From Saccoglossus kowalevskii (lineage: Eukaryota > Hemichordata > Enteropneusta > Harrimaniidae), in assembly GCF_000003605.2 (NCBI RefSeq), contig NW_003121912.1:312765-365803 (forward strand): DNA of 53,039 nucleotides. Direction: 5' to 3'. Made by a program: the position numbers and the translations under genes. Under the pieces are notes generated by a model. It saw only the letters and a program-made list of their open reading frames with translations. It did no database searches and was not told the origin of the DNA. The number at the start of each line of letters is the position of its first letter. The stretch's first letter is position 1. Below, piece after piece: positions 9,001-53,039 of this stretch.

Positions 9001-12000
9001 TAAAAACAATATCCAACTATTATGTTAGTCAACACAACATATAGTAAACAGAGTACAGCTTATGTCTGGATAAACTGTAAACTGATTAATTTTCGCTGCT
9101 GATTATGGCAAAATTTGTGAAAATGTTTTGAAAGTCAGTGACATAGGTCTTCTGGAGTTATTTTCACTGCTACTAAATTATGCTTCTTTAACTTGACTGA
9201 CAAAAGTTTTATATTTCCAAAAATAAATAAACTCTCTGCCCAAAGCTGTTGGTCCAACCGTGTTTCAAAAGCTACAGTTTTCTACTATGCTTCCTAAATT
9301 AAACTGATGTACGGGAGTCTTGTTGCGATTTTGACAAACCCCTATTTTGTAGTCTGTGTAGTTGGTGTACAGTGTTTAATATTCATTCATGTCTGTTTCT
9401 AGTCCATATATGTGTAATTTCTTCTGGCCCCCAACAATTTAAACAACTTCAGTTCTGGTTATTGATAGGCCCTAAGAAAGCATTTACAGTCACCTTTGCA
9501 GTATTTGTTGCACTGGCAACATTAAGGTAGAAGCCTACTCATAAATTATAAAACCCGGAATTTATTCATTTTGCAATAAATTGTACTCCAAGGCAATATA
9601 AGATTGTTGACCTAAAAAAAGTTGGGGGTCACCAGCGATTTTTTCGAGAAATTGATGGTTGTATTTTAGTGGAAAGTCGACATTTTGACACTGTTATAAC
9701 ACTTTTACCACAGATGTCTATGGCAGAGATATTGTGCAATATCCTAAAATCTAGCCTTGTGACATGGGCTGAAAAAAATCATATATAGTTAATGATGGTG
9801 TACTTTTTGTTCTGAATTATTTAAATAATCTGGGTTTTAAATAGTGTCAAAAAATACAATTTTTCTTAACATTGTGTTCTATGGAATTGTTCTAAAAATA
9901 GCAATTTTCAAGAAATATTAAGATATGTTTTTCAAAAAGCATAACTGTAACACACAAAATGCTATTTCATTGTACCATGAGACATTAGCTTCATGATTGT
10001 ACATAATAAACTAATGAACATTGTCATGCGATTTATGACCAATTTTGTCAAATATTATGACTAGGCTTCTACCTTAAGCACCAGTACGTCTATGAACATT
10101 GGTTGACTATATTAATTTGCAAATGTATAAATAATTGTTCATAACATCAAATAGATGTATACATGTAGCAGTACTTGTACTTCAGCATGGGTGTGCACAC
10201 TAACAAGTACAAGTTATTTTCCTAGGATGCTAAAAATGCACCTGCAATGCTTAAAGAAGAGAAAGCTGTCGCTTCTGGATCCGGTAAAAAAGACAAAAGA
10301 GATGAGAGACGGAAACGTGCCACTGGTGGCGCTGGAAGCACTCATTCCGGAGTAGGGGGGAATGCTAGAGAAGTCAAGATTAAGAAAGCTAAAAAAGGAA
10401 GAGGAGGGAGATTTGTAGATGCTGAGGATGAAGAGGATATGGATGATTTCACACAAGGTAGGTATTTCCAATTTAATCATTCATCATATATTCTATTTTA
10501 GTCCGAAAAGGGGACTATTAATTTGGGTTCGTTCCATACGTCCATCCATCAGTACGTACGTCCGAAATGGCCGACTGTGTGTCCGCAGCAGTGTCTCGGA
10601 GATGACTGGGCCGATTTGGATCAAAGTTAGTATGACGATCATACATATTGGGTTGTAGGTGTACGTCATTTTTTTTCCATGATTCGAACAAATATGGCCG
10701 ACTGGTGGCCATTTTGTTTTTCATGGTACCCATGCTACTTTCTCTTGAATGCAATGAACGTTTCTCTTTAAATTTTGTACAAAAACAGTATACCAATAGA
10801 TACATCAACATGAACATTATTTTTTGTAATTTGATTCAATTTGACTGCCCAATGTCCAATTCTCGTGTAAAAGCACTAAATCATAATTTTTTACAAATCC
10901 ATCTCCTATTAATGGTTTCAATCTATTCTCAATGACTTCAAATTGATATGTCAGATCACAAAATTTTGGACAGGACTGTGTCATTAACAATGACTTGTTG
11001 AATTTTGTGTTGACAATGTGTTTTACACTTGTTGCTTACCGATCTCAAACTTGGCATGGCATTGAACCCAATGAATTTGTTATTATAAAGCTACAAAGAT
11101 GAAATACTCGCATCTTCCTGCATTTAGAGATTAATTTTTACAAAAATCTTGTCAGCACTACTCAGTTTCTTTAAAATTATCCCACATTGATATAAAGACG
11201 TTATACCGGTAATCTCATTTGCATCCTTCTTTTTTTTCACATGCAAACATTTTAATATGATTGCTAATATTTAATCATCACTCATAGCTTCACAACCAGT
11301 GAATGCAACATGAAAAATATTGTTTTAAAAAAAGATTTCTAAATACTGCAAAATGACTAATTTTCACTGGGTTTAAATTTCACTAATGTACCATTTCAGG
11401 CATATTCACTGGGTTTTAAATTCATGGTTTTATCAGATAATGTGTTCTATGCTAAATTTTACATATTCACTGGGTTTTAATTGAGCACATTTTCCAATCA
11501 GCGAAATAAGCAAAATTAAAACCCAGTGAATAATTAATCCTTTCACAGTATACTGAAAAGTATGCTCCTACAACATGAAGTTTTGTGAATAGAATGTCAA
11601 TATTATTTTTGTTAAAGTAGCATCTTGCTGTCCTGTCTCCTTTCATAAAAATGTGCAAAGTACAATCTCAGTGATTGACGCCTTGCTTTTTAAGAAACCG
11701 CTCTAGATTGAAAATAAACTTTGAGCTAATCTGGTCAAATTAATTTAGCCACCTGTCAATACATTTACCATTTGGCAAATGGATAACAGAATCCCTGCTC
11801 TTTGCTTTGTGTTTTTTTGTTTTGGGGATTACATCTCTCACCATGTCATTAGACACAAGTATATCACTTAGTTTCTTCTCATGTTCTGTATTCCAGGATC
11901 CCGGGATCGACCACAAGAACTGAAATTTATGTCACAAGAAGAAATAGAAGACGTACTGAGTGAAAACCTTACTGACTGTTCTGACAATTTCATCTCAGAA

Positions 12001-15000
12001 ATCGCTTCTGAACTGGTTAGGTAATGTTTACTGTACATAGTAAAACTTTCGTAATATCCAGAAATTTAAACCACTATTGTGGGGGGAAAATGTACATACT
12101 AATGTGCATTTTATTTGCATAATTATTGAAAATAGAAATTGTGATGATGATCTTGCTAATTAAAATGCACAAAAAAATTACTATACTGCCCTCTGGTGGC
12201 CTACTTTTGTATTTGATGATAATTTTGTTTTCTTCGCAGGCCTCTCACCAAGTCTTACCAAGAAGTGGCTAGATCTATATTTATGCAGACTACTGGTACA
12301 TCAGATAGTGTTGACAGACGGAAAACACACTCGGAATTGCAAGATAGAATCAATGGACTCTGGACTAATATTAAATTATTTGAGAAAGGAATTAAAATTG
12401 TCAGCGGTAAGGGTGAGAAGTTTTCTTTTGATTATATAATTAATTTTGATTTATTTATTTATAGTTCAACATATTGCAGTAATGTTTCATGCTATATTTG
12501 TTTATTTTTGACTATATCACATTAAAACATACTATCATGATGGATCTGAACATCAGATATGCATTTTACAATTTACTGTATTTAAAAAATAGTAATATTC
12601 TAAATTAATGATTGAGTATACTACAAATGAGACTTGGGGTTTACATGTGCTTCTGTTGGAGAAAAACATGGTATTATTATCAGAATTTTAAAGCGACATT
12701 TGGATTCATCAGAAACATAATGAACATACAGTGTACAAACAAATTAAAATTGTTTGTAAAAATTAAAGATAGTAAACCATCATTTGCCATGGATAACAAT
12801 TTGAAAGAAATGCGTAATGTAGGAGCACATTTCTGTCAATTGACTGTTTTGTGATCATTGTAATAAGTAACATCCACATGCATGATCCTGAGCTGAATTA
12901 GGGACGACGTCAAAAGATCGATGTCGGATAAAAAACTTATTTGCTTTAGTTTGGGGGTGGGGGGTTTTGACCTCAGTTTCCATCCTACAAAAACGATTTT
13001 ATTTTTTAATGAAGTAAAAAAAATCTTGGAATATATGTAGTTCGTTTTTTTCCTATCCAATCATGGACAAAAATAACAGAAAATAAAAAAACACATCCAA
13101 GACAAGAAAATGTTTTAGTCAGAGTGTAAATGAAGTCAATTTCAGAACATAGAGCATGCGCAGAACCCAAAAAAGTATTTTGCGCATGCGTATATTCCCC
13201 TTCATTATTTCCTCTTGAACGGCCGAAGGTTTGGTGGCTGGGTTTTTTGGCAGACAACCAACTGCTATGCCATACTACTGTCCGATTATCAATTTGTATT
13301 TAATGGTGAATGTAGTCTGATCAATATGTATCAATTAAGTTTCAGTGGGGGTGGGGGGATTGGGAAAAAACTAAAGGAATTAAGTTTTTTATCCTACATT
13401 GAACTTTTGATGTTGTCCCTTACATGCCACTGGTTATCGATTTCATTATCTATTTTCCTTTGCAGAGGATCTCCAAGGTCAGTTATACAGGTATATCTTG
13501 AAGACTCTCTGTTCTGATATTTCTAATCTGCTCTTTGAAGCTTTAGCTAATGATAACATGTTGAGAGTAGAAGACTCTAGCACTCTTACACCAGAGGTGA
13601 GAATAATCTTACTACTGTAGTTTATTTTTAATATTTCCAATTTAGTTGTGCTATAAATAAACATAAATTGGGTTGAGAAATGTCATTTAAATTCATAGAT
13701 AACTAAAAAAAAACACTTCCTGGGATTATATATTCACTGATTTACCAATTAAGTCAAAATAAAGTGTTCTACAGCACTATTAGCTTTCATTCTGTCCACA
13801 TGTACCAATTGAACACTTTCTACTTCCTCAATTTTTTACAGCTGAGAGCCAAGCTACTTAATAAGTTTCCAGCTAATATTCAGAGCAAGATGACAAAATT
13901 ACACAATTCATTGACAGAAAAGGTGAGTAGTTTGTCTCATTGCCTCTCTAACCACTGAAATTCATATAGTTATATAAAATATGAAGAATCAGGTTTTATT
14001 AGGAGAAATATTTACCANNNNNNNNNNNNNNNNNNNNNNNNNNNNNNNNNNNNNNNNNNNNNNNNNNATGTTCTATCTGAACTCTTAGTTTGTGATATGA
14101 ATCTGGATATTATACCTCTTTAACTTGATCAGAATGACAGATGGTTTGTTCTGATGATCAGAGTATTGAAAATCAAAATTCTCTAATTGAAACTCTGTAA
14201 TTCCTGACTTGTGTACAACAATGTAGTATACATAGACGACTTTCCCGGAAGTTGAAGAACCGGCTTTTCGCATGCGTAATTGGGATGTAACGTAAACTTG
14301 CACGCGTGATATTGTGCTCCTGTGTGTACCAATCGACGTAACAAAAATAAAATTCTTTTCTATTGACTATCAGTAAACTGACATGGTTGTATTTTCCCCC
14401 ATGACAAAGCAGGAGTATCTTACACCCCAGTTTTGCTACTTCGGGAAAGTGGTCTATTAATGGCATAGATTTATCAAAGTAAATCTGTTGACTATTTGAA
14501 TACTATCTGGTTGCTCATCAAGTATCCAGTGGTTTTTGCCAAGTTCTGAAGTTCATTTTCACTGAAAAGAATTTTTGGGTGTTTTGTATGCAGTTTATTT
14601 TCACTGATTTTTTTTTTTTTTTATGAGTTCAATGTAAGAAAAAAGATATTTTCACTGAATCATCCCTTAAGTAAAAATAGAGAAAATAAACCCCTTGAGA
14701 AAAACTACAAATAATTGTCAGTTTTAATACTGTTCTGCCATTTGGAAGTATTGATCTTTGACTCCGACATGTGCTTTCTTGGTGTGTGATACAAGTAAAT
14801 AGGAATGGGTATCTCTAATGATTTATAGAAGTAAATCTGTTTTGTGGTTTTGCCAAGTTCTGAAGTTCATTTTCACTGAAAAGAATTTGTGTGTTTTGTA
14901 TGCAGTTTATTTTCACTGATTTCTTTTTATGAGTTCAATGTAGAAAATAATTTTCAGTTTTAACACTTTTGCTTGCAGCACAAGAACTGTTCTGCCATTT

Positions 15001-16581
15001 GGAAGTATTGAGCTTCGACTCTGACATGTGCTTTCATGGTGTGTGATACAAGTAAATAAGAATATGCAACATCTGTTCTTTTTTCAGAATTTGGATGATT
15101 TTAATAGTCATTTTGATGATGCATGTTCTCTCTGTGATGTGATGTTAAAAAAGTCTGATAAAAAGAAAGACAGGTAATAAGCTAACACAGAGTCATTAGT
15201 AAATAGTTTTAATTTTACAGGAAACACTCTTTCATCAGTAAGAGAAAATAGTGACATATTGTAGTTTTCTTGGTAATTTTGTTCCTCACTGTAGATGCGA
15301 ACATGCTTGCTGTGAGATTGTAAAAATGTGTATTTTAGATTTCACTTTTTTGCAGATTTAAATTTAATAGGAAATATCAGGGTTTGTTATATGTCATTGC
15401 ATGCCACTGTGATTATATTATGAGATTATTACCAGAATACCTCAAAGTCTGCACGAAGAAAGTACAACTGGAGTATCGACCGACGCGCAGCAGAGGTCGA
15501 TGCGACGGTGTACTTTCTGAGTGCATACTTTGAGGTATTCTCATAATAACCTTATTATTATACATCTTTTCCTTCCATGGATACACCATAGGAATGCCGA
15601 AATCCAAAATGTTTAGAACAGAATCAGCGAACTTCTTTGTGTTAAATCCGGTCAAACTCACATTTCACATTTCCTAATATGGTAGGATGAAAATACCGCA
15701 AAATTACGGCACGCTGTAATTTTTGACATTTCGGTGATAGATGTATAATAATATAAATTTACCACAATTTTCTATACATATTAGTAAGTTATTTATTTAA
15801 AAGTTATCTTTTAATAATGCATGCGTTAGATAGATGAGATGTATCCATGGTCAAAATATTCCTATAATCCAAAAAATAGAGCAAATGCAAGAACTAATAC
15901 AGCTTAAATATTGAATTGTGTGCCCATACACAAGAAAAACATTGATTTAAAGTTGAGCAAATAATCCCTGGTGTTCAGACAGAAATAGTGGAGGAATATT
16001 ATATTATTCTACATTCCTACACCTGTAAGGTAACATGGCATTAACCCCAAGTAAAGCAACGTGGTGAAGATTCATGTACTTGGCTGAGAAGTTTGCCAAC
16101 TATTGTCTCATTCAAAATATCCTTGTATTAATGTAAATTATGTCATTGTTCAATGTGGTTATTGTAATTCTGCTTCCTGTGTGTTCTTTGCAGGCAACTT
16201 ATATTCAACCACAGACAGGCCTTAGCAGAGCAGATTCGTAACGAGGAAGAGCCTGCCATGCTGCTGCATTTATGTAGTGTTATGTTATTCCAAACATATA
16301 CCAACTGTATGATCCACGTGCCGGGACGATGCGTGCCTCAACTCATCGCTTTCTTAGCAGATGAGATCCCGTCGGAGCATCACGAACAACTACTCAAGTT
16401 TCAAGGACTGGTGCAAAAACGACTTGGCACAGATCGGGCAGAAAAACTAGATGACTGTAGCGAAAAAAGTGATGTTGAAATTAACAGTGATACTGAAGTA
16501 GTCGCCGAAATGAGTAGCTTTGTAACTGTGATAAGAGAGATAGCATTGTCGAAGAAACATGTCCCAAATAAAGAAGACTGA
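71..16581 (+). CDS. UFL1: E3 UFM1-protein ligase 1 (UFL1), 5' partial, 16 exons
   Basis: UFL1 transfers the ubiquitin-like protein UFM1 to substrates such as ribosomal protein uL24 at the ER membrane, working with DDRGK1 and CDK5RAP3. Coding exons: 71-216, 1057-1085, 1407-1504, 3093-3207, 3783-3913, 6197-6255, 6852-6998, 7671-7846, 8503-8673, 10226-10457, 11897-12020, 12240-12406, 13466-13596, 13842-13922, 15088-15173, 16194-16581 (TGA). All junctions are AG/GT and phases agree. The 759 residues visible compare with about 794 in the human protein, so only the first ~30 residues (upstream exon) are missing. Family-typical stretches include [42 protein letters not shown], a lysine/arginine-rich basic region ([13 protein letters not shown]) followed by an acidic run, KLHNSLTEK and [12 protein letters not shown]. 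One exon is only 29 nt. The longer introns hold transposon remnants listed separately and are otherwise AT-rich with nothing recognised. No frame damage seen. Confidence 0.97.
173..582 (+). repeat. Tandem duplication of the 3' part of a UFL1 exon plus intron
   Basis: Bases 173-367 and 388-582 are similar at an offset of 215 bp. The first copy covers the last ~44 bases of UFL1 exon 71-216, its splice donor and about 150 bases of intron. The second copy keeps the coding frame ([14 protein letters not shown] against [14 protein letters not shown]) and a GT donor (GTAACC), but lacks the front of the exon and has no convincing polypyrimidine-AG acceptor. It is probably a non-functional exon fragment inside the intron. 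Confidence 0.8.
3941..5794 (+). mobile_element. Decayed pogo/Tigger-type DNA transposon with terminal inverted repeats
   Basis: The ends are inverted repeats. The left end at 3941-3965 starts CTACCGTAAAAATCATAATT. The right end at 5769-5794 reads, on the other strand, CTACCGTTAAAAATCCTAAT, and both continue into TGAGGC. TA dinucleotides flank the ends (3939-3940; 5796-5797, one base displaced), as expected for the Tc1/mariner/pogo superfamily. The element sits in a UFL1 intron in the same orientation as the gene and contains a broken transposase (separate entry). Its 1.85 kb length is short for an autonomous Tigger (usually over 2 kb), in line with an internal deletion. Confidence 0.85.
4443..5432 (+). 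pseudogene. pogo/Tigger (CENP-B-like) transposase pseudogene
   Basis: The remnant begins with an N-terminal DNA-binding helix-turn-helix segment ([17 protein letters not shown], then [12 protein letters not shown]; 4443-4634). A CENP-B-like second DNA-binding piece follows in another frame around 4660-4780 ([17 protein letters not shown]). DDE-domain pieces come next: SMDETPLRF near 4900 carries the first catalytic Asp, and [16 protein letters not shown] near 5070-5125 carries the third. The second Asp region is absent: the strand ending LHPLIIVIP runs straight into [11 protein letters not shown], an internal deletion. The C-terminal acidic tail ([13 protein letters not shown], stop at 5432) is in yet another frame. 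Several frameshifts and a TAA after VNKLLK make it inactive. Confidence 0.85.
9526..10073. mobile_element. TTAA-flanked MITE (piggyBac-like non-autonomous element)
   Basis: The left end GGTAGAAGCCTACTCATAA is mirrored at the right end, where the complementary strand reads GGTAGAAGCCTAGTCATAAT. Both ends are immediately flanked by TTAA (9522-9525 and 10074-10077), the target duplication typical of piggyBac-group elements. The 548-bp interior is AT-rich and has no long open frame, so it is non-autonomous. It lies in a UFL1 intron. Confidence 0.75.
10500..10740. repeat. Probable dispersed repeat with GTCC-rich head
   Basis: The segment opens with a short hairpin (TAGTCC GAAAAG GGGACTA), continues with GTCCATCCATCAGTACGTAC-type low-complexity sequence, then phrases such as GGGCCGATTTGGATCAAAG and two ATGGCCGACTG motifs. 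Its CpG content contrasts with the CpG-poor intron around it. The organisation resembles non-autonomous repeats common in marine invertebrates. No target duplication found, so the limits are approximate. Confidence 0.35.
11464..11532. repeat. Perfect 19-bp inverted repeat (TATTCACTGGG hairpin)
   Basis: TATTCACTGGGTTTTAATT at 11464-11482 is exactly complementary to 11514-11532, separated by 31 bases. Degenerate direct copies of the same arm occur just upstream (TTCACTGGGTTTAAATTT near 11363 and ATTCACTGGGTTTTAAATT near 11404). This suggests repeated insertion or local amplification of a small hairpin element in this UFL1 intron. Confidence 0.6.
12184..12203 (-). promoter_or_regulatory. CTCF-like motif in UFL1 intron
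   Basis: The minus strand reads TAGGCCACCAGAGGGCAGTA, which contains an essentially perfect match to the core CTCF consensus (CCACCAGAGGGCAG). Orientation is reverse relative to the window. Motif match only; no occupancy data. Confidence 0.45.
14018..14067. other. Assembly gap (50 N)
   Basis: A run of 50 N inside a UFL1 intron; true length unknown. No coding exon is missing here, since the exons at 13842-13922 and 15088-15173 join in phase. Confidence 0.99.
14235..14454. mobile_element. TA-flanked MITE
   Basis: The left end GACGACTTTCCCGGAAGT matches the complement of the right end (GACCACTTTCCCGAAGT). Both are bordered by TA (14233-14234 and 14455-14456). The 220-bp interior has no transposase. 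Several CpGs mark it off from the CpG-poor UFL1 intron, suggesting a younger insertion. Probable Tc1/mariner-group non-autonomous element. Confidence 0.65.
14479..15060 (+). repeat. Imperfect tandem duplication in UFL1 intron
   Basis: Two diverged copies (about 14479-14800 and 14831-15060) share the order GTAAATCTGTT, GCCAAGTTCTGAAGTTCATT, TTTTCACTGA, TATGAGTTCAATGTA, TTCTGCCATTTGGAAGTATT, and GTGTGTGATACAAGTAAATA. The first copy is longer by an internal stretch and a poly-T run. The duplication ends just upstream of the acceptor for exon 15088-15173. Confidence 0.8.
15424..15550. repeat. Long hairpin (inverted repeat)
   Basis: The left arm contains AGAATACCTCAAAGTCTGCAC and AGAAAGTAC (about 15434-15464). 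The right arm carries the complement (GTACTTTCTGAGTGCATACTTTGAGGTATTCT, about 15509-15542, here described by position). Inner bases around TCGACC and GGTCGA also pair. Arms are over 30 bp with few mismatches and a short loop. Probably a MITE or a snap-back duplication in the UFL1 intron. Confidence 0.7.
15553..15753. repeat. Second inverted-repeat element adjoining the hairpin
   Basis: TATTATTATACATCT at 15553-15567 is exactly complementary to 15739-15753. Inside them ATGCCGAAATCCAAAAT and ATTTTTGACATTTCGGTGAT also pair imperfectly, so the whole 200-bp segment can fold back. No transposase; likely a small non-autonomous DNA element. Confidence 0.5.
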
Positions 16582-32653: not shown

Positions 32654-35600
32654 TTATACCAGAGGTGGCGTGAGGGGGTTCCATCCCTGTTTAGGCGCCG
32701 ACAAAGTTTGGTGGGTTGTGTACGTGTCCGGAACGTCGGTGTGCGACGACTCGTAGATAGGCGAATGACCGGAATGTAAGCTGTTCGTTCCACTCATGGT
32801 GGCGGGGATCGAGCCGTATGGCGATCGAATAATTCCCGTTGGTATGGCTGTGTTAGCACTAGTCACCGGTGTTCCCATCTGCCACATTGATGGATATTGG
32901 CTGCTGGGGTGCGATGTGTGCGACGAGACGGGTAGAGCCGGCCAGTTTTCATGAGCTGACAGCATTGACTCGGCTGCGTAACTATTGGCTATAGAAACAA
33001 TAAAATAAAACATGATTAGTTAACATGGCGGAAAAATGTACAAATGTAAGTAAAAATCATTAAAATTAATCCAAAAAGTTCAACATATTGACGGAGTTTT
33101 GGAAGTTTCTTGTAGTCACATTGTCATTGTCAATTCTAAATATTAATGACCACGGTTGCTGGAACGACCGGGTTAGATGTCATAAAAGTCGGACACCGTG
33201 AAGAACCACCTTGGTTCTTGGCGCCTATCAATGTTACCACCTTTTATTCGATTGCCAAATTACAGGTTTGAACACCGCGTTTAGTTGATTAGCGATAAGG
33301 GGGTTCTAATAAAACGAAATGACGGAAAATGAGAGTGAACTTGAACAAAAAGTAGACATACATGACTGGGCAAAAAAAAGAACTTAAAAAAAAATACAAG
33401 TTGGTAAAAGTTTGTCAAAATTTCGAACGGTTGGTTCAAATATGCGGCAATGTCACTAGAATTGGTTTCATTTTTGGTGAGAAAGTGGAAACGGACGAGA
33501 ATAAAAACAAGAACGTGGATGACCCAAGGTGAGTCAGTATTTTTAATGTTTTTTTGACGAACGGCAATAAAACATAACAACAAATCGTAACGTGAAATTG
33601 AATTACAGGAGTACGTTGAGTGTCTGGTTAAAAAATAAACCTGATTGTCAAGGAAGAGTACCAGTTAAAACATTGCCAAAGCTATAAACTATTCATGGTC
33701 GTGTTTGGATGGGCCAAGATGGCCAATGAGATATAAAACCCAACAGCGCCATCAGCTGTTCGTCAAAACTTGGACAGTAACTAAGGAAACAAACAGGAAA
33801 CGGGTGTGTGGAAATAGTAGTAGTTGCATTTGTAGTATGCAACTTGTATTTTTTAATCATAACGAAGTCGAATTATAATAATCTGAAAACTGAAATAGTA
33901 CCACTCGTTCGGGCGAAGTCGTAAAACCGAACCCGTGTGCATGTGATATGTCGTAAAACAGTATTCCGTTTATTTAGATGCCTAATTACACAGGGTCGTA
34001 AAAAGATTGACAATGGAGTTTGAAAACGAAAATAAGCCATGTACTTGAGTCCCCAAAACGTTTACATACTGGGTATATGTAGTTGATAGAGGGGGAAAGG
34101 TAATCTTGTGACGCCGGCTATTTTTTGTGACAAAGAAGTAGCGTGGGACGAGGTGATAATAAAGTCAATTGTGGGGGAGATGGTACAAATATCAATTTGA
34201 GAGTCACGTCTGTTTGTCAAGTTATGAATCATACAAGGGCGTCAATTCGATTGAAAAAGTGTGTCTGTATACATCGATGGTCCGTTACTACTTTGGGTGG
34301 TACGGGTCAATATGAGTTGGTATATCCACGGCGTAATCGGTATGTTGTATCATAGAGGGTCCATAATTGCATGTCAGAATAATATATGGTAGTTCAATTT
34401 ACAGTTATCAAAAAAGGGTATAAACGGATAATTAGTTTCACAACAGCTAATAATATAGTTATTATATGAGCGTACTTACCAGTTTGTGAGTGTTTTTGGT
34501 ACGGTGATGGGTACGGAGCGCTTCTGTGAGATCTGAGACTGTTGTAGCGTTCACAGCCAGGTGCGCTTCCATGTAAACCTATACTGCTGAACTGTCTGGG
34601 GTCTGGAGCGGGACATAACGCACTCGTACCAGGGAGAAACCATCCACCAACTGTAACAAAAAAAATAATTTGATTTGATTACATATAGATAATAATAACG
34701 ACATGACATGAAATTAAATACTGAATTACATATACATACAACGGAAAACGAACTAGTATTACGTAGGAATATCGCATATATGCGATGTCCTCGCTAACGG
34801 AGACAAAATCGATATATTATTGGTTTGGTAATCGGTCTAGCTATTTCACAGTATGTATTACAGCACAATACGAAGGTGATAACACTAAACTGTAAACAGT
34901 CTGGCGGTCGACGATCCTGTGACACTCTATTCATATTATTGGTACACCCATTTCTCATACTTACGCTGTGAGCACTGTTGCTGCATGTCATGCACATGGG
35001 CCTCGGCAAATAGGTCTCTGCTATCACACCTGGAAATAGAAACACGTTTAGTTTTAGTTCGCGGCTGGGAGATCTCAAATTGTAACAGTTTATGTGAGCA
35101 TGTGCGGCAGTAATGCGGGTGTGGGAAAGGTTGTATCGGGTGTTTGTGGGACCATAGGAGGGAAGTAAGGATGACGACAATACAGGGGTGGGACGATTAG
35201 CTACACAGCCCTGTCAATGCGTGTTTGGATAAGTAATTTACCAATCAATTTACTGGACAAGAAGTACACAAAACCACCCTCTTTTGGGTGAAAGTGTTGC
35301 AAAGACGTCAGACAAACACAGCTGTGAACATGACTTTTGTAAAAAATACAATGGGCTCGACGGACTAGTAAAAAGAAAGTTCAAAACAATGCCTGAACTA
35401 AGACAACACATTACAAAACGTAAATTAACACGTTGATCAAGAGACAGAGGGGTCAGTTATCGGTGAGTCCACGGCGGGTTGGAGCTTGAACAATTTAAAA
35501 GACGTGTTTTGTAGCTATGCGGGGCTTAGCGAAAGACGGGATGTGAAGTCCGTGATGTCTTACCTTTCTTTGGCGTCTAGGAAGGCTTTAGCAAACGGAT

Positions 35601-37048
35601 TGTGTTTTATCTTGAGTGCAGTAATCTGGAAGAGAAAAATAGCAAAATTTGACTACTTGTACATGTACGTAGAACCATTTTAGCGCATAATGCCATGGGC
35701 ATAACGCCGTGGCAAGGTGTCACAGAAGCCGTCGGCGAAATCAAAGACATACGTGAATCGGATTACAAGAAATCATCTCTAATATTGATAAGAAGGTGAC
35801 GATGGCAAATAACAAATTAGCTGATATCATGTAAAAATATATCGTAGTCCTGGCAACGCGATAAAATCTTAGGAAATACGATAATACAAATGTTTTGTTT
35901 TAGTGAAAGTAAAACCCTTACCTCTTCGTTCTGATAGGCGGTAACGGCAATGAAACGGGTGTCTTTGAAAGTATGGGTGCTGACCATGCGCTGTTTTTCG
36001 TTACCTCCAACTTTGATGATATGAACTCTAGGTTCGTATTTATGAAGAGAATGCAGCATGATCTAAGTCAAATGGAAAAAAAACACGAATTAATTAAATT
36101 AAAATTCAATGATAAGTAAATACACAGCGTAATTATCAGATAGCACACACTCGAAGAACTAAATAAAACTTTTGTGCAACTTACATGCCCGCCGCCGTTG
36201 AGTTTATTTGTTAGTTTCACTTTACTGAAATTAACAGACTGCTTCATCCAGTGGGCTCCGAAGTTAGGCGAATCAGGGTGTATATAGACAGAACTCGGTG
36301 CAGCGGCTTCGGGTTTACCGCCGGGCACCCATTCACCGTTCACATACTTCCAGCGGTGATTGTCGGCGGCCACGAAGTCTAGAAGTACCGAATACATGGC
36401 GTTTGGATCCAGCCCTGAGATTGAGATACGGAGGACTGGAAACATTCGTCTATGAAAAACAAAAAAATTCAAATTGTATTGTCCAGGCACTCACGTTGCT
36501 ATACTAGTATACAGATTTCAAAATATAACTAAGTTAGAACACTATATCGGCGAAACTGTTTATTCACGAAACTGTCCATTTAAGTGTTATTTTTCTGTTT
36601 TTGGTTAGACTGATGAACGAGACATACGAGATGCGTTTTTGTCTAAAGTTTTTATTTTTTATGAATACCGGCTTTCGATTGGCAGGTAAATCTGTAAACA
36701 TTTGCAAACACAACGGCACACATCGGTAACTCAGTATTAATACAGTGAATTATTGCTCTTATAGCATGATTGCTAAACGCCAGTTCATAATTCACCAACC
36801 ACCTAACAATTACATTTAAATCTTAATTTTAAAAACGACTTTTTGATTATTTACCTTCCGTTCTTGGTGACAATCATTTCATTTGTCAAATTCCCAAAGC
36901 GTTTCCATAATTCCACGTCTTCTAGCGATATTTTAACGTGTCGTTCCGTTGGGTCTCCCTTTTTGGTACAGTCGTTCATCTCGCTCTGCACGGCGCTCAA
37001 GAGGTGGTTCACGTTGTACGACGGTGGCTTCATGTCAACTGTTGTCAT
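32654..37048 (-). CDS. TBXT: Brachyury T-box transcription factor, complete, 7 exons
   Basis: Brachyury is a nuclear DNA-binding activator of mesoderm, notochord, hindgut or blastopore programmes. Coding exons on the minus strand: 37048-36855, 36449-36185, 36062-35922, 35625-35564, 35029-34965, 34650-34480, 32988-32654. All are GT-AG and in phase, giving 410 aa (human 435). Residues 11-24 ([14 protein letters not shown]) match the N-terminal motif associated with Smad1 binding. The T-domain runs about 40-220, with [50 protein letters not shown] and [19 protein letters not shown]-terminal Brachyury signatures are [31 protein letters not shown] and a final GWNPLTPP, which separate it from other T-box classes. 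Unusual substitutions include GGGH for the usual GGGQ and [17 protein letters not shown]. The start is the first ATG of the open frame. Confidence 0.97.
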
Positions 37049-37156
37049 ATCGTGTCTGTAGACGTAGAATTATCAGTATATATGTGTAAAAACTCAAAGG
37101 TCAAGTATACTTCACGGAGGTTATACGAATGACTACTTCTGACTGAGTGTTTGGAC

Positions 37157-37986: not shown

Positions 37987-38209
37987 NNNNNNNNNNNNNN
38001 NNNNNNNNNNNNNNNNNNNNNNNNNNNNNNNNNNNNNNNNNNNNNNNNNNNNNNNNNNNNNNNNNNNNNNNNNNNNNNNNNNNNNNNNNNNNNNNNNNNN
38101 NNNNNNNNNNNNNNNNNNNNNNNNNNNNNNNNNNNNNNNNNNNNNNNNNNNNNNNNNNNNNNNNNNNNNNNNNNNNNNNNNNNNNNNNNNNNNNNNNNNN
38201 NNNNNNNNN
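37987..38209. other. Assembly gap (223 N)
   Basis: Run of N about 0.95 kb upstream of brachyury, so part of its 5' regulatory DNA is unknown. Open frames reported across it are artefacts. Confidence 0.99.
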
Positions 38210-47307: not shown

Positions 47308-47460
47308 CGGCTGATCTGCACTGGCTCGGAAGATGAATTCTGATTGGCTAAAAAAAACAAAAAAACTTGTGGCGTTGAATGCACGTTCATTGTCAGTATT
47401 GTTATGCAAATTCAAACTAGCTAATCATTTACAACCTTCCGAGCCAGTGCAGATTAGCCC
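47308..47460. mobile_element. MITE with 25-bp inverted ends and 8-9 bp target duplication
   Basis: The left end GGCTGATCTGCACTGGCTCG is mirrored at the right end, whose complement reads GGGCTAATCTGCACTGGCTC. The flanks repeat TAATCCTG(C) at 47300-47308 and 47461-47469. An eight-base duplication would suggest hAT, a nine-base one a Mutator-like element. The ~150-bp interior has no coding sequence. The intact duplication and near-identical ends indicate a fairly recent insertion. Confidence 0.85.
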
Positions 47461-48361
47461 TAATCCTGCAAAGACAAACAAAAGAACGTGACGTAATCAG
47501 TGAAGCCCCAATCACACACACCTATACGCTCCAAGTTATGAATATTCATCTTGAATTTGTGATGATTTAAAACAGCATTTGTGATAAGTATTTGCAAAAA
47601 AAAGGTCGCATGGGTCACGCTATGTGGACACATATCACAGTTCTAGCTTAACATATACAATGTACACATCAAAGTTTTACAACAAAGCTTTTACTATGGT
47701 TCAGTGCGTGTTTCAACACGACTACTTTGTGTGTGAATGGTCCAATCGGTATGAGTCATTGGGTGGAGACGTCTCCGATAAAGTGAACTCTGACACCAAG
47801 CTCTTACTTCGTTTTACATTCTAAATACATGTACTAGTATACTGTTTCACTTCACATACGTATTGGCAATGGTGAACCAGAACCCGGACCGCTCTCTGAT
47901 GTGATCTGTAACCAGTTGGCACTTCACAATTTTGGTTTGATGAAGAGTGGTTATAAACAAATTTGTCACGTGGCTAATCTACAATTCTCTATAAAAATAA
48001 AATTGTGGTAACCGAAATTGTGACACCGTTCGGGGTCAAAACGGTATAGGGGAAACGTTTTCCCTTGAACAATTTGGCTAACCCTGGAACTAAAAGTTGG
48101 TATACACTGTAAACTGTCAACCAAGCTAGGTTCAGAATATATATTATATATTTAATTATGTTTCTGTGAATTTCTTTGTGAACAAATTACGGATAAGTAC
48201 TGTTCCGTTTTCATTTTCACTCCCCGCGCCAGTTGAATTAACTAACCCTTGACCTTTTCTTGGTTTTCCGGATGTCACAACAATACACTGAGTATTTAAA
48301 TAACTTTCACCTTACAGAATACCACAACTTCACAGAACACAGCTTCCCCGTGATGGTAGTC

Positions 48362-50239
48362 ATGTATCGAGCGGCGTTCTTACTGCTGGGCTACATGCGA
48401 CTGCATTATGTTACGGCAGTCTTTTTTATTCAAGAACCACAGAATGTGACTATGTCCGAAGGTGAAAACCGCGAACTGAGCTGTAAACTGGCCGGATTAC
48501 AGGCTGCGATGAAAGTGTCCTGGACTAAAAACGGTATCACAATAAGCGATAACTATTTGATTAGAGCAGAATCGACTACATCGACTCAACTCTTGCACTT
48601 AAGTATCGTTGGTAGTTTTTCCATTGGACAATATAATTTACTGATAAAAGACGCCAGTGTTACTGAAGAGGGGAGTTACCGGTGTGTTGTTGCCGCGGCT
48701 GAGAACGACTTTGTTTTGAAGACATCTCGCGCGGCATCGGTCTCGGTACTGATCGCACCGAAGATGTCCCCGATGTGCAGCATCACACCGCCCATCTTAC
48801 CTTCTCAGGATGTTGTACAGGACGATACGTTTGAAGTGCAATGTCAGATAATAACAGAACAACCACCTGTAGAAATTATATGGATAGACGCATATGACAA
48901 CATACACGCCGGTAGTGAAGAGCGTGTAGACCATGTGACGACAAGTAGTTTTAAATGGGTCCCTCAACGACGGGATATGCATATGTCATTCAGTTGTATC
49001 GTCATACATCCTTCCTTGCGCACACCATTGCTATGCTCTCTGGGACCGTTCAATGTCGTTTACAGACCGGTTATATACATGTTTGCAGAAGACGACGCAA
49101 CAGAAGTAGGCAGTTCGGCAACTTTTACCTGCGAGGTCGATTCTAACCCACCTGTCTACGAGTTCTTTTGGACGTACGGTGGAATTCCGATATTTTTAAA
49201 TTCGATGGGTAGTCGGTTCAGTGTACGTGGAGGTCCGAACGGGAAAAGTTGGTTGACGATAGCAGGTGTAGGAGAAGATGATGACGGCGCCTTGATAGCA
49301 TGCCGTGTCCACAATCTACAGGGCGTCACGGAGGCCAATGTAACGTTGAATGTTACCGCCATGATCAACGTAACAGTGGAGTACATCTTGGTGAAACAGG
49401 AGTACGCCACGTTAGTTCTCTTCACATGTCATGCAAGATCGATAGTCGAACCACTGCACTACACGTGGTTTTACAACGACGAAAATCTCAATAATTCGGG
49501 AAAATTTAATGTGTTGTATATGGGATCGGCATTGTTGGTTTCGAATCTGTCTAAAGTTGATATCGGCGCGAACGTCACATGTATCGCATCAAACACGCTT
49601 TCTGAGGCCGATGATACAACTGTCTTAGTCGTTGACGCCGACACCTTGACTAAGATATCACAAGAATGGAGACATATAGATAGAAATGATACACTGATTA
49701 AAATTGCTCTATTTATCAGCGGTTTTATAATGGGAGCCATAATTATCGGTATTCTAGAATTTCTAACATTGAAAAGGGTAAGACGTTTGAGTCAAACTCC
49801 GAAGAATCGTAACACGCGAGGCAACCAAAGTGGCACCATCTTCGTCCAACCAGAACCGGAAAATAATCTAAACAGACGGAACTTGTCCTCACTTAACCTC
49901 ACCTATGACGACACCGATTCGTTAGGATACATTCAGCCAATCGGAGACAGTTCATCAGGAGCTAACAGCACGTTGCCCGGAAGAGCAAAACCATATATGC
50001 CGCATCATCTTAACCTCACCTATGACGACACCGATTCGTTGGGGTACATTCAGCCAATCGGAGACAGTGCCTCGGGGGCTAACAGCACGTTGCCTGGAAG
50101 AGCAAAACCATATATGGACATTGACCAGTCGATGGTAGGGGTGAATAGCGACTACCAGAAACTAAATAACACGGAAAAACAGCTGGGAGCTGTGGCTAAG
50201 AAAGTGGCGATGCTTGAGTATGATAACAGAACTAAATGA
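48362..50239 (+). CDS. Intronless four-Ig-domain type I membrane protein with tyrosine-motif tail
   Basis: A single open exon; 625 aa from the chosen start. I take ATG 48362 (MYRAAFLLLGYM) because the downstream paralogue also begins MYRA; in-frame ATGs at 48260 and 48353 are alternatives. A hydrophobic N-terminus fits a signal peptide. Four Ig folds follow, with Cys/Trp/Cys at about 41/54/108, 161/174/212, 257/270/314 and 356/369/407, and several N-glycosylation sequons. One transmembrane helix (about 446-468) is followed by basic KRVRRL, then a ~157-residue tail. The tail holds two 39-residue units with TYDDTDSLGYIQPIGDS (Tyr 515/523 and 554/562) and SDYQKL (Tyr 598), an ITIM-like motif; YIQP fits pYxxP SH2 ligands. 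I infer a cell-surface receptor or adhesion protein with phosphotyrosine signalling. Ligand and orthologue are unknown. Confidence 0.9.
   Translation: MYRAAFLLLGYMRLHYVTAVFFIQEPQNVTMSEGENRELSCKLAGLQAAMKVSWTKNGITISDNYLIRAESTTSTQLLHLSIVGSFSIGQYNLLIKDASVTEEGSYRCVVAAAENDFVLKTSRAASVSVLIAPKMSPMCSITPPILPSQDVVQDDTFEVQCQIITEQPPVEIIWIDAYDNIHAGSEERVDHVTTSSFKWVPQRRDMHMSFSCIVIHPSLRTPLLCSLGPFNVVYRPVIYMFAEDDATEVGSSATFTCEVDSNPPVYEFFWTYGGIPIFLNSMGSRFSVRGGPNGKSWLTIAGVGEDDDGALIACRVHNLQGVTEANVTLNVTAMINVTVEYILVKQEYATLVLFTCHARSIVEPLHYTWFYNDENLNNSGKFNVLYMGSALLVSNLSKVDIGANVTCIASNTLSEADDTTVLVVDADTLTKISQEWRHIDRNDTLIKIALFISGFIMGAIIIGILEFLTLKRVRRLSQTPKNRNTRGNQSGTIFVQPEPENNLNRRNLSSLNLTYDDTDSLGYIQPIGDSSSGANSTLPGRAKPYMPHHLNLTYDDTDSLGYIQPIGDSASGANSTLPGRAKPYMDIDQSMVGVNSDYQKLNNTEKQLGAVAKKVAMLEYDNRTK
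49892..50115 (+). repeat. In-frame 117-bp tandem duplication in the receptor tail
   Basis: Copies begin CTTAACCTCACCTATGACGA at 49892 and 50009 (period 117 bp, 39 codons). Over the 108 comparable bases I count seven differences. Only one codon change (TCA to GCC, Ser to Ala) alters the protein; the other five are silent. Confidence 0.95.
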
Positions 50240-50283
50240 GAGTCATGATCGTCTGCTATCATGATAATGGCGGGAAGCTTGTG

Positions 50284-50289
50284 AATAAA
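50284..50289 (+). terminator. Polyadenylation signal of the first Ig gene
   Basis: AATAAA, with an overlapping second AATAAA, lies 45 bases after the stop codon. Another is at 50356-50361. Confidence 0.5.
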
Positions 50290-50434
50290 TAAATATATAT
50301 ATGTCATAATATATCAAGAACTAACATATCATATTCGGAGATGATTAAACTTAACAATAAAAACAATTATCGTTGTTTATTTTATTCATTTTGTTCAGCA
50401 ACTGTTTCATACGGAATAACATGAGACCGAGCCA

Positions 50435-50555
50435 ATCACTACGTTCACGTGGCTGGTTGAATTACTACGCGTGACTGGTCGAATCACCACGCGTGTCTGG
50501 TCTAGTCACTTCATGTGACTGGTCGAACATACACGTGACTGGTTGAATCACTACA
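50435..50555 (+). repeat. Degenerate ~23-bp minisatellite
   Basis: About five imperfect units of the type TCACTACACGTGACTGGTCGAA; each carries a CGTG-ACTGGT core. It lies just beyond the first Ig gene. Confidence 0.8.
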
Positions 50556-51548
50556 CTATCTATTAAAATTGAGTAAAACTTAATATAAACCGGAAATTGC
50601 TACAATTAGGGTGTATTTATTCCATACCCATCGCTACATGTATGTATTTATTTTTATTAATTTTCGTAAATTTATCATTAATAATATTATCCTTATGAAA
50701 TACAAATATTTATTAATACTATAAAATATTGTAATGCGTGAATAATCTATGTATGGGTATTGTTGGAGATGTTTTGTGATGGGTGTATGTATATGTCCAG
50801 TATTTTCTCGGTTAATTGAAGTTTTTGTTGGTAATTTGTTTTCTTCATAGATTACTGATATATTGGTTACGTCATGTTTTAATACGCCCTGGGCGATGCT
50901 AACGAGGCCATTGTGTCCCCCTCAATAGCGCTACGTTAGGGAATATATGCCAGATCTTATTCAAAAGTATGTGTGTTTTGTGGGATGTCAATTTCACCAC
51001 GTTCTGCATTGAAATCGCTCCAAAATAAAATAGCTGCTACGTTGATCAATTTTGATTACTGCGATGGTTAATATTGTCATATTAGAAATAAAGAACCAAT
51101 ATTCTGATTACATATATCGTGGCATTACTAAAGTTTAGATAAAATAGCCGATTAAATCATACTATTAAACTATAAACAAAAAACTAAATTTATAGTAAAG
51201 AACTATATAACCATCGATCATTGTGCCAAACTCGTAAGGTATTTAAAACATTCCCGCGTTTGTTTAACCCCCTTCCCAACCATTTGTCATTCTACTACAC
51301 ACTATGCATAACGCTATTAATAGCCCAGCGTCCAGATTTTAAACCAATGTTTACGAGGTGTGTATATACAGTAACTGCGAATGTATGAACGAACGTGATT
51401 TGATGTAATTTTTGTTCCAACAGTGCGTTTGGCAATGAACTGTTGCGACCGCACTGGGTGACATCTTGGATCGACACTTGTTTAACCGGGTCAAGTGGTC
51501 ATGAAAGTGTAAATCAACTTAACCGCACCCTGCCGTGTCACATGACTG
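50556..51548. other. Spacer between the two Ig genes
   Basis: AT-rich, about 1 kb, no open frame of interest. The minus-strand frame 51295-51477 has no recognisable features. Confidence 0.5.
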
Positions 51549-51556
51549 TTATAAGA
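51549..51556 (+). promoter_or_regulatory. Possible TATA box of the second Ig gene
   Basis: TTATAAGA lies about 24 bases before an initiator-like CCATTC (51571-51576), giving a 5' UTR of about 66 bases. An out-of-frame upstream ATG at 51604 opens an 18-codon frame that ends at 51660, inside the main coding region. Confidence 0.3.
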
Positions 51557-51638
51557 ACCATCAGTGCAGGCCATTCGTAGTTGGTGTGGATTGAATTTCG
51601 ACGATGGTGCGAATTACTCTGAGTATACAACGTATACA

Positions 51639-53039
51639 ATGTATCGCGCTCTTCAGGTAATTCTCCTGGGCATGTGCGTCTTGCAGATTTTGTTTTCAAC
51701 GCCAAAGAGGGTCACTGTCAAAGTTGTTGGGGGAAATACGATGGTCCCGGAAGGTGGCAATGTCACTTTGAAATGTACAGTAACCCAGCTGACCTTATCA
51801 GAAACGGTGTCATGGGTCAAAGGTAACACGATTATTAGTGAAAACGATAACATCCGCAACCCCGGAGAAATGATCAGCAGTCGTCGTTACAATGTTGTTG
51901 CGAAGGATGGTGAATACGACTTGTACATCGACAATTTTCGGGAGAGCGACGCCGATGAGTATCAATGCATAGTCACCGATTTCCAGGTGGCGCACCAGCA
52001 AGTGGTTAAAACGAGATCTGTACAACTGACTTTTCATCACAAACCACCTGTTCCCGTATGTGAAGTCACATCAGGAGTCATTAAACGGGAAGTAGTCGTA
52101 GGTCAAACTGTCACGTTTGTGTGTATGTTGAACAGATCACGGCACAATGTCCGCCTTCAGTGGTTTCGAACACCGGATGGAAATTACCTCAAATCACGGG
52201 ACGATGAAGATGTTCACTATATCTATAGTTACTATACTTGGCTGCCATCGAAACGCGATTCCGACTTAAATCTCGCGTGTGCGGCCCACTATCGAGACTT
52301 AACATTAGATACTTTACCTTCTTGCACTGTTAGGCCGTTTACCATACTGTACAAGCCGAATATAAGTATTTATCCGAATATTGCTCGACCCAAAATAAAC
52401 GAAAACGCTGTGTTCCGATGCATTGCAGACGCCAATCCAACAGCGACTTCGTGTACGTGGAACTACAACGGTGTTGCAGTCGTCAGAATCTTACTGGAGG
52501 ACAGAAGATTGAGACTGTCAAACGATGGCAGTACACTTATAATCTCGAATGTGCATCCTGGTGACGTGGTCGCCGTACTGACTTGTGACTGTTTCAACCA
52601 CGTCGGCAACAGTACTGCTAGGGCAATGCTGGAGATAGAAGAAGACGAAATTGACTTCACTGTCAGTTTAAAACATCGAGTGGCCGGACAAGTTCGTCCA
52701 GGGGGCGTGGCTGTATTTGTATGCGATGTTCATAGTATGCAACCACAGCTTGATAAATGCAAGTTTAATTGGAGTTTCAAAAGTGTGTTCGTTGACAATA
52801 ACTGCGACACCGACAGGTTTATTTTAGAACAACGCATACGCAATGCATTGCTGCTAATTACGAATGTATCTATCAGTGACAACAGCGGAGAATTGAAGTG
52901 CAGTGTGACATGCGGTCACGCAACAAAGACCGATTCCCTGAAATTGGACGTCTCGGTCGAGGAAGCGGAGGATGCCAGCAGCTTCTATCAACAGCGCAAA
53001 CTAAATCAGGACTCCGATATCGTCATCAGAATACCGAGA
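51639..53039 (+). CDS. Second intronless four-Ig-domain membrane protein, 3' partial
   Basis: 467 codons are open from ATG 51639 to the right edge with no stop. The protein starts MYRALQVILLGMCVLQILFS, a good signal peptide. Four Ig folds have Cys/Trp/Cys at about 46/59/110, 162/175/214, 261/274/316 and 362/378/421. It parallels the gene at 48362: the second-domain phrase WLPSKRDSDLNLAC against WVPQRRDMHMSFSC, followed by FTILYKP against FNVVYRP. The two therefore arose by tandem duplication but are now strongly diverged. The sequence stops about where the membrane helix begins in the paralogue, so helix and tail are off the window. Probably a cell-surface receptor or adhesion protein. Whether its tail shares the tyrosine repeats cannot be seen. 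Confidence 0.88.
   Translation, partial: MYRALQVILLGMCVLQILFSTPKRVTVKVVGGNTMVPEGGNVTLKCTVTQLTLSETVSWVKGNTIISENDNIRNPGEMISSRRYNVVAKDGEYDLYIDNFRESDADEYQCIVTDFQVAHQQVVKTRSVQLTFHHKPPVPVCEVTSGVIKREVVVGQTVTFVCMLNRSRHNVRLQWFRTPDGNYLKSRDDEDVHYIYSYYTWLPSKRDSDLNLACAAHYRDLTLDTLPSCTVRPFTILYKPNISIYPNIARPKINENAVFRCIADANPTATSCTWNYNGVAVVRILLEDRRLRLSNDGSTLIISNVHPGDVVAVLTCDCFNHVGNSTARAMLEIEEDEIDFTVSLKHRVAGQVRPGGVAVFVCDVHSMQPQLDKCKFNWSFKSVFVDNNCDTDRFILEQRIRNALLLITNVSISDNSGELKCSVTCGHATKTDSLKLDVSVEEAEDASSFYQQRKLNQDSDIVIRIPR

Follow-up and report, generated by a model that had tools for sequence, protein, structure and literature searches.

What kind of protein is made by an animal gene that encodes four immunoglobulin (Ig) domains in a single coding exon, and how does such a gene arise? 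We asked this of two neighboring genes at the right-hand end of a 53,039-nucleotide stretch of Saccoglossus kowalevskii contig NW_003121912.1 (hereafter the window, in whose positions all coordinates are given). Multi-Ig receptors usually have introns at their domain boundaries, an arrangement that aids domain shuffling and alternative splicing; the kind of four-Ig protein found here is familiar, and the single-coding-exon structure is uncommon. Our analysis indicates, with moderate confidence, that the genes are two tandem paralogues for type I transmembrane cell-surface proteins of a nectin/IRM-like kind, with the domain order V/I, C2-set_2, I and Ig.

The frame of gene 1 runs unbroken for 625 codons from an ATG at 48362 to the stop codon at 50237-50239; measured from stop to stop, it covers 48242-50236, or 665 codons. 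It contains three in-frame ATGs (48272, 48353 and 48362), and we took the last as the start because MYRA, the four residues with which the protein then begins, also opens gene 2 at 51639 in the protein alignment. The second frame is open from 51555 to the end of the window (at least 495 codons), with one ATG near its start, at 51639. When the window was simulated 60 times with a first-order Markov model, the longest frame between stops had a median of 144 codons and a maximum of 204, so both frames are far beyond chance. The two uninterrupted, neighboring, same-strand frames of the original prediction, which was made from the sequence without database searches, are thus both present:

48362..50239, + strand: coding region of gene 1, one exon, 625 amino acids (open frame, simulations; other in-frame ATGs as above)
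50284..50289, + strand: AATAAA, the first one 3' of the gene 1 stop, 45 nucleotides away (sequence scan)
51639..53039, + strand: coding region of gene 2, 467 amino acids visible, its frame interrupted by the window edge (open frame, alignment to gene 1)

Scanning single segments against Pfam revealed the same domain order in both genes: I/V-set, C2-set_2, I-set and Ig. Ig domains exceeded the Pfam cut-offs in both proteins, and seven of the eight segments passed a cut-off when taken one at a time. The eighth, D4 of gene 2, reached 18.0 bits compared with the I-set cut-off of 23.7 (E = 0.003), and its two cysteines and tryptophan align with those of gene 1. Overall, both proteins have the Ig domains with a cysteine pair and a tryptophan that define the immunoglobulin superfamily, one segment of eight lying below the Pfam cut-off, and the four Ig domains claimed for each gene were recovered. 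The domains and other parts of the two proteins are as follows:

48362..48427, + strand: gene 1 hydrophobic leader, residues 1-22, a putative signal peptide (hydropathy; start shared with gene 2)
48428..48751, + strand: gene 1 D1, I/V-set, IRM-like (Pfam I-set 1.4e-11, V-set 1.5e-07; Kirrel1, PDB 4ofd, is matched, with titin and DCC higher for D1 alone)
48752..49060, + strand: gene 1 D2, C2-set_2, with an extra cysteine pair C139/C225 (Pfam 2e-06)
49061..49357, + strand: gene 1 D3, I-set (Pfam 2.3e-08)
49358..49636, + strand: gene 1 D4 (Pfam ig 1.5e-07)
49703..49771, + strand: gene 1 transmembrane helix, residues 448-470 (peak Kyte-Doolittle value 2.37, 19-residue window)
49772..50236, + strand: gene 1 cytoplasmic tail, 155 amino acids with eight tyrosines (residue count)
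51705..52034, + strand: gene 2 D1 (Pfam Ig_3 1e-10; among PDB matches of the D1-D2 piece, SYG-1 ranks first)
52035..52355, + strand: gene 2 D2, C2-set_2, with an extra cysteine pair C141/C229 (Pfam 4.3e-06)
52356..52655, + strand: gene 2 D3 (Pfam Ig_3 4e-08)
52656..52964, + strand: gene 2 D4, weak (Pfam I-set 0.003, below cut-off; cysteines and tryptophan aligned with gene 1 D4)

Gene 1 is complete, and every part foreseen for it was found: a leader, four Ig domains, a transmembrane helix and a tail containing SDYQKL and two YIQP motifs. In gene 2, a leader precedes the four Ig domains and the sequence ends where the gene 1 helix begins. Since its last visible residues align with those just ahead of that helix, gene 2 is incomplete solely through the window end and probably carries its own helix and tail shortly past the edge. 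Both genes retain the extra cysteine pair around the core pair of D2, and C139 and C225 of gene 1 may form a bond. The phrase WxPxxRD, proposed as a handle for finding relatives, sits in D2, which Pfam assigns to the broad C2-set_2 family in gene 1 as in gene 2, and so is unlikely to be peculiar to this pair.

The two proteins are 26% identical over their aligned part (blastp, 118/486 identical, E = 2e-28), and their Smith-Waterman score of 286 compares with a maximum of 63 among 200 shuffles. Identity by domain is 28% for D1, 25% for D2, 30% for D3 and 18% for D4, and each of the first three domains of gene 1 scores highest with the domain at the same position in gene 2. The fourth domain departs from this pattern, a point against our reading: D4 of gene 1 scores 61 with D3 of gene 2 and 41 with D4. 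Because the genes share strand, domain order, positional matches of D1-D3 and unbroken frames, we attribute them to tandem duplication of a four-Ig, single-coding-exon gene, as had been suggested; the simplest reading is that they are paralogues from an old whole-gene event. Their 5' flanks showed no conservation (score 19, shuffle mean 19.2), and a tblastn search of the window with both proteins revealed no further copies (next best E = 1.7). Strong divergence is no sound ground for reading the pair as an immune family, as 26% identity may reflect only the age of the duplication. Between the two genes, at 50446-50556, lies a degenerate 22-nucleotide tandem repeat of about five copies.

Both coding frames cross all Ig domain boundaries without interruption. 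The term “intronless” can be kept for the coding region of both genes and should be dropped for the gene as a whole: pyrimidine-rich AG sites upstream (48232 and 48317 for gene 1, 51423 for gene 2) leave room for an intron in the 5' untranslated region, which may be present. The lack of coding introns is no regional trait, since the neighboring Brachyury gene is split by introns. As both copies are without them, parsimony suggests that the founder had already lost or lacked coding introns before the duplication.

Did that founder arise as a retrocopy, made from the spliced mRNA of a multi-Ig gene and later duplicated in tandem? We regard this as a serious possibility, short of probable. Coding introns are missing from both copies though the neighboring gene has them, as a retrocopy would explain; stepwise loss of introns, or descent from an old lineage of single-exon genes, would account for this equally well. 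Around gene 1, the marks of retrocopying were absent or not clearly beyond chance: no A-rich tract was seen 3' of the gene, and its flanks share five 9-mers compared with a shuffle mean of 2.1, a count of at least five being reached in 49 of 500 shuffles (this comparison concerns the gene 1 flanks, the 3' side of gene 2 lying beyond the window). The missing marks weigh little, because the divergence is great and such marks are expected to fade with age. Of the retrogene founder and subsequent tandem duplication that had been suggested, with massive intron loss as the alternative, the second step is supported, and the first is possible.

The family placement rests on remote matches to solved structures (PDB), Pfam and a profile built from the two sequences. 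The N-terminal end remotely resembles IRM proteins. For example, the D1-D2 piece of gene 1 matched titin first (46.3 bits) and Kirrel1 (4ofd) second (40.5 bits), with Roughest also matched, and that of gene 2 matched SYG-1 (4of0) first (27.9 bits), followed by SIRP-alpha (25.2 bits); the Kirrel1 and SYG-1 alignments stop early in D2. Further along, the match shifts to nectins: D2-D3 of gene 1 matches nectin-2, PVR and nectin-1, the nectin-2 alignment forming one stretch, and the profile of both proteins matches D1-D3 of nectin-3 as a single stretch (E = 3.7e-11). Several results pull away from this placement. Titin leads for the D1-D2 piece of gene 1, titin and DCC outscore Kirrel1 for its D1 alone, and MuSK comes first for gene 1 as a whole; SIRP-alpha ranks over SYG-1 for the whole of gene 2, and Robo1 is marginally ahead of nectin-3 for the two-sequence profile (3.5e-11). 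All structure matches are remote, and they fix no family. We thus place both genes, tentatively and on these matches, no more precisely than among adhesion receptors of a broad nectin/IRM-like kind.

Domain counts set the pair apart from both named families. IRM proteins (Kirrel, Roughest/Kirre, SYG-1) have five Ig domains and nectins have three, whereas gene 1 has four before its transmembrane helix. The likeness to IRM proteins lies in D1 and the start of D2, which align with both genes as a single stretch; besides the domain number, the single coding exon is a difference, and the tail repeat of gene 1, described below, resembles none known to us. The likeness to nectins and the poliovirus receptor lies in the continuous nectin-2 and nectin-3 alignments, and, unlike nectins, gene 1 ends in DNRTK, without the nectin-type PDZ ligand. 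Two scans for relatives on viral contigs gave 1 and 84 pattern matches, none of which was confirmed.

The cytoplasmic tail of gene 1 had been described as of signaling type, with a sequence like an immunoreceptor tyrosine-based inhibitory motif (ITIM). To assess its motifs, ten patterns were compared with shuffled tails, and the P values given are uncorrected. The firmer evidence is an in-frame tandem duplication that doubled three tyrosines, and it is firmer than any of the ITIM, YxxP or activation-motif (ITAM) matches:

49892..50116, + strand: tail unit duplicated in tandem and in frame, with a period of 117 nucleotides and 1.9 copies (Tandem Repeats Finder, TRF), three tyrosines per copy (TYDD, GYIQP, PYM)
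50111..50164, + strand: YMDI-x10-YQKL, a loosely ITAM-like pair whose second half belongs to the ITIM match SDYQKL (pattern and shuffle test)

Of the seven differences between the two copies in the matched 108 nucleotides, six are at third codon positions (P = 0.007), a hint that selection has preserved the amino-acid sequence of the unit since it arose by copying. Extending the comparison to the full 117-nucleotide unit gives 14 differences, eight at third positions (P = 0.058), and weakens that hint; the closing three codons of the period, which fall beyond the array that TRF gives for the second copy, are all different. The short motifs offer less. The ITIM pattern [SIVL]xYxx[IVL] has one match, SDYQKL, and 30% of shuffled tails also have one (P = 0.30); tail motifs are few. 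The two YxxP sites (P = 0.08) are copies of each other, and two Yxx[IL] motifs occur at P = 0.27. The strict ITAM, Yxx[IL]-x6-8-Yxx[IL], is absent, the spacing being 10, which satisfies the wider 6-12 rule (P = 0.035, one of ten patterns). With YMDI of the second copy ten residues before it, YQKL could be part of an activating arrangement instead of an inhibiting one. The motifs of the original prediction are thus present, and its ITIM call is weak.

Judging from these sequence features, the proteins are most likely recognition or adhesion receptors whose tail could be a substrate of tyrosine kinases. YxxP sites are preferred by SH2 adaptors of the Crk/Nck type and Yxx[IL] sites by those of the Syk/SHP type. 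In the mechanism we propose, the N-terminal Ig domains would recognize a partner carried by another cell or by a foreign surface, and clustering would lead Src-family kinases to phosphorylate the repeated tail tyrosines. The phosphorylated YxxP and Yxx[IL] sites would then recruit both types of adaptor, and contact would be converted into a cytoskeletal or blood-cell response.

Adhesion and immunity are the two settings to be weighed. The genes could descend from the IRM/nectin type and encode a pair of adhesion proteins of nerve or muscle that make homophilic or heterophilic contacts in the manner of Kirrel and nephrin, with no part in immunity; we consider this possible, if somewhat unlikely. 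The IRM-like D1, the nectin-like D2-D3 and the two YxxP sites, to which SH2 domains of the Crk type bind, agree with it, whereas the four Ig domains of gene 1 in place of the five of IRM proteins and the better match of D1 to titin and DCC do not.

An immune role might be suspected from known invertebrate receptors, and the pair could belong to a family like oyster IgIT or the Botryllus FcoRs, with many diverging tandem copies whose tails alternate activating and inhibiting tyrosine motifs. We hold this to be unlikely. Diverged tandem copies are indeed seen, gene 1 has its two Yxx[IL] motifs and gene 2 its remote SIRP-alpha match; however, just two copies lie within the window and the motif evidence is close to chance. 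Comparable receptors do exist. As described in a 2025 review (PMC11999971), oyster CgIgIT2 is a receptor with Ig domains, a transmembrane helix and a tyrosine-motif tail, expressed mainly in haemolymph, and so resembles gene 1 in plan and in coming from a marine invertebrate. By the same description, on which our comparison relies, it differs in the number of Ig domains, which is five, and in having a classic ITAM; the motif is termed ITAM there, and two of the three titles cited for it speak of inhibition (PMC11999971). The Botryllus FcoRs, according to another 2025 review (PMC12065747), are clustered immunoglobulin superfamily receptors whose tails carry ITIM, hemITAM or Yxx[ILV] motifs, a likeness to the present pair; they differ in combining a V-type Ig domain, a sushi domain and two C2-type Ig domains, in numbering 53 loci so far and in belonging to a chordate. 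A gene without introns is also treated as an immunoglobulin superfamily member in an invertebrate, Aplysia AcFREP1 (PMC11999971), which is a fibrinogen-related protein and not a four-Ig membrane receptor. These accounts indicate that such systems exist in invertebrates, and membership of our pair is not thereby established (PMC11999971, PMC12065747). No intronless multi-Ig receptor pair appeared among the matches listed from titles and abstract openings of the open-licence literature.

A bolder reading, which we regard as quite improbable, is that the pair represents an undescribed, tandemly expanding invertebrate family of single-exon, nectin/IRM-derived receptors, in which ectodomains diverge, the tail gains tyrosine units in frame, and innate recognition would have its signal strength set by repeat number. 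That the frames are pseudogenes or pieces of a larger gene, a reading to which the truncation of gene 2 at the window edge lends something, is highly improbable, since gene 1 is complete from start to stop with AATAAA shortly beyond and both long frames stayed open despite their divergence.

The remainder of the window holds unrelated genes. Brachyury (32660-37063, - strand) has several exons, is divergent from the Ig pair and lies about 11 kb from it; its identity is indicated by the best match, T protein 1xbr, with 176 bits compared with 101 for TBX21, the best other T-box protein. Its T-box comes in three pieces (36857-37063, slightly under the Pfam cut-off, 36071-36490 and 35922-36035), and 32660-32989, which matched no Pfam family, is its likely C-terminal exon. 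A C-terminal exon of UFL1 (E3 UFM1-protein ligase 1) lies at 16168-16578 (+ strand, Pfam 1.4e-33), and 10226-10459 (+ strand), without a Pfam match, looks like a charged segment from the middle of that gene. In the segment 4248-5426 (+ strand), a Brinker-type DNA-binding domain (Pfam 5.2e-06) leads into interrupted open stretches that match no Pfam family at E below 0.08; the segment is perhaps a decayed transposase gene. Some 1 kb upstream of gene 1, a 42-nucleotide inverted repeat with 79% complementarity (47309-47350 and 47418-47459) is perhaps a small mobile element. Runs of N occupy 14018-14067 and 37987-38209, the second about 1 kb upstream of the first recognized Brachyury exon, and a tRNA and Rfam scan of the window at the gathering threshold found no match.

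Four-Ig receptors confined to one coding exon must diversify by other routes: by point change, by whole-gene tandem duplication, and by in-frame duplication of tail units, the last of which is seen here. Should there be only two copies, they would be an ordinary lineage-specific pair; should there be many, they would offer a ready natural example of how recognition receptors evolve when exons are not shuffled.

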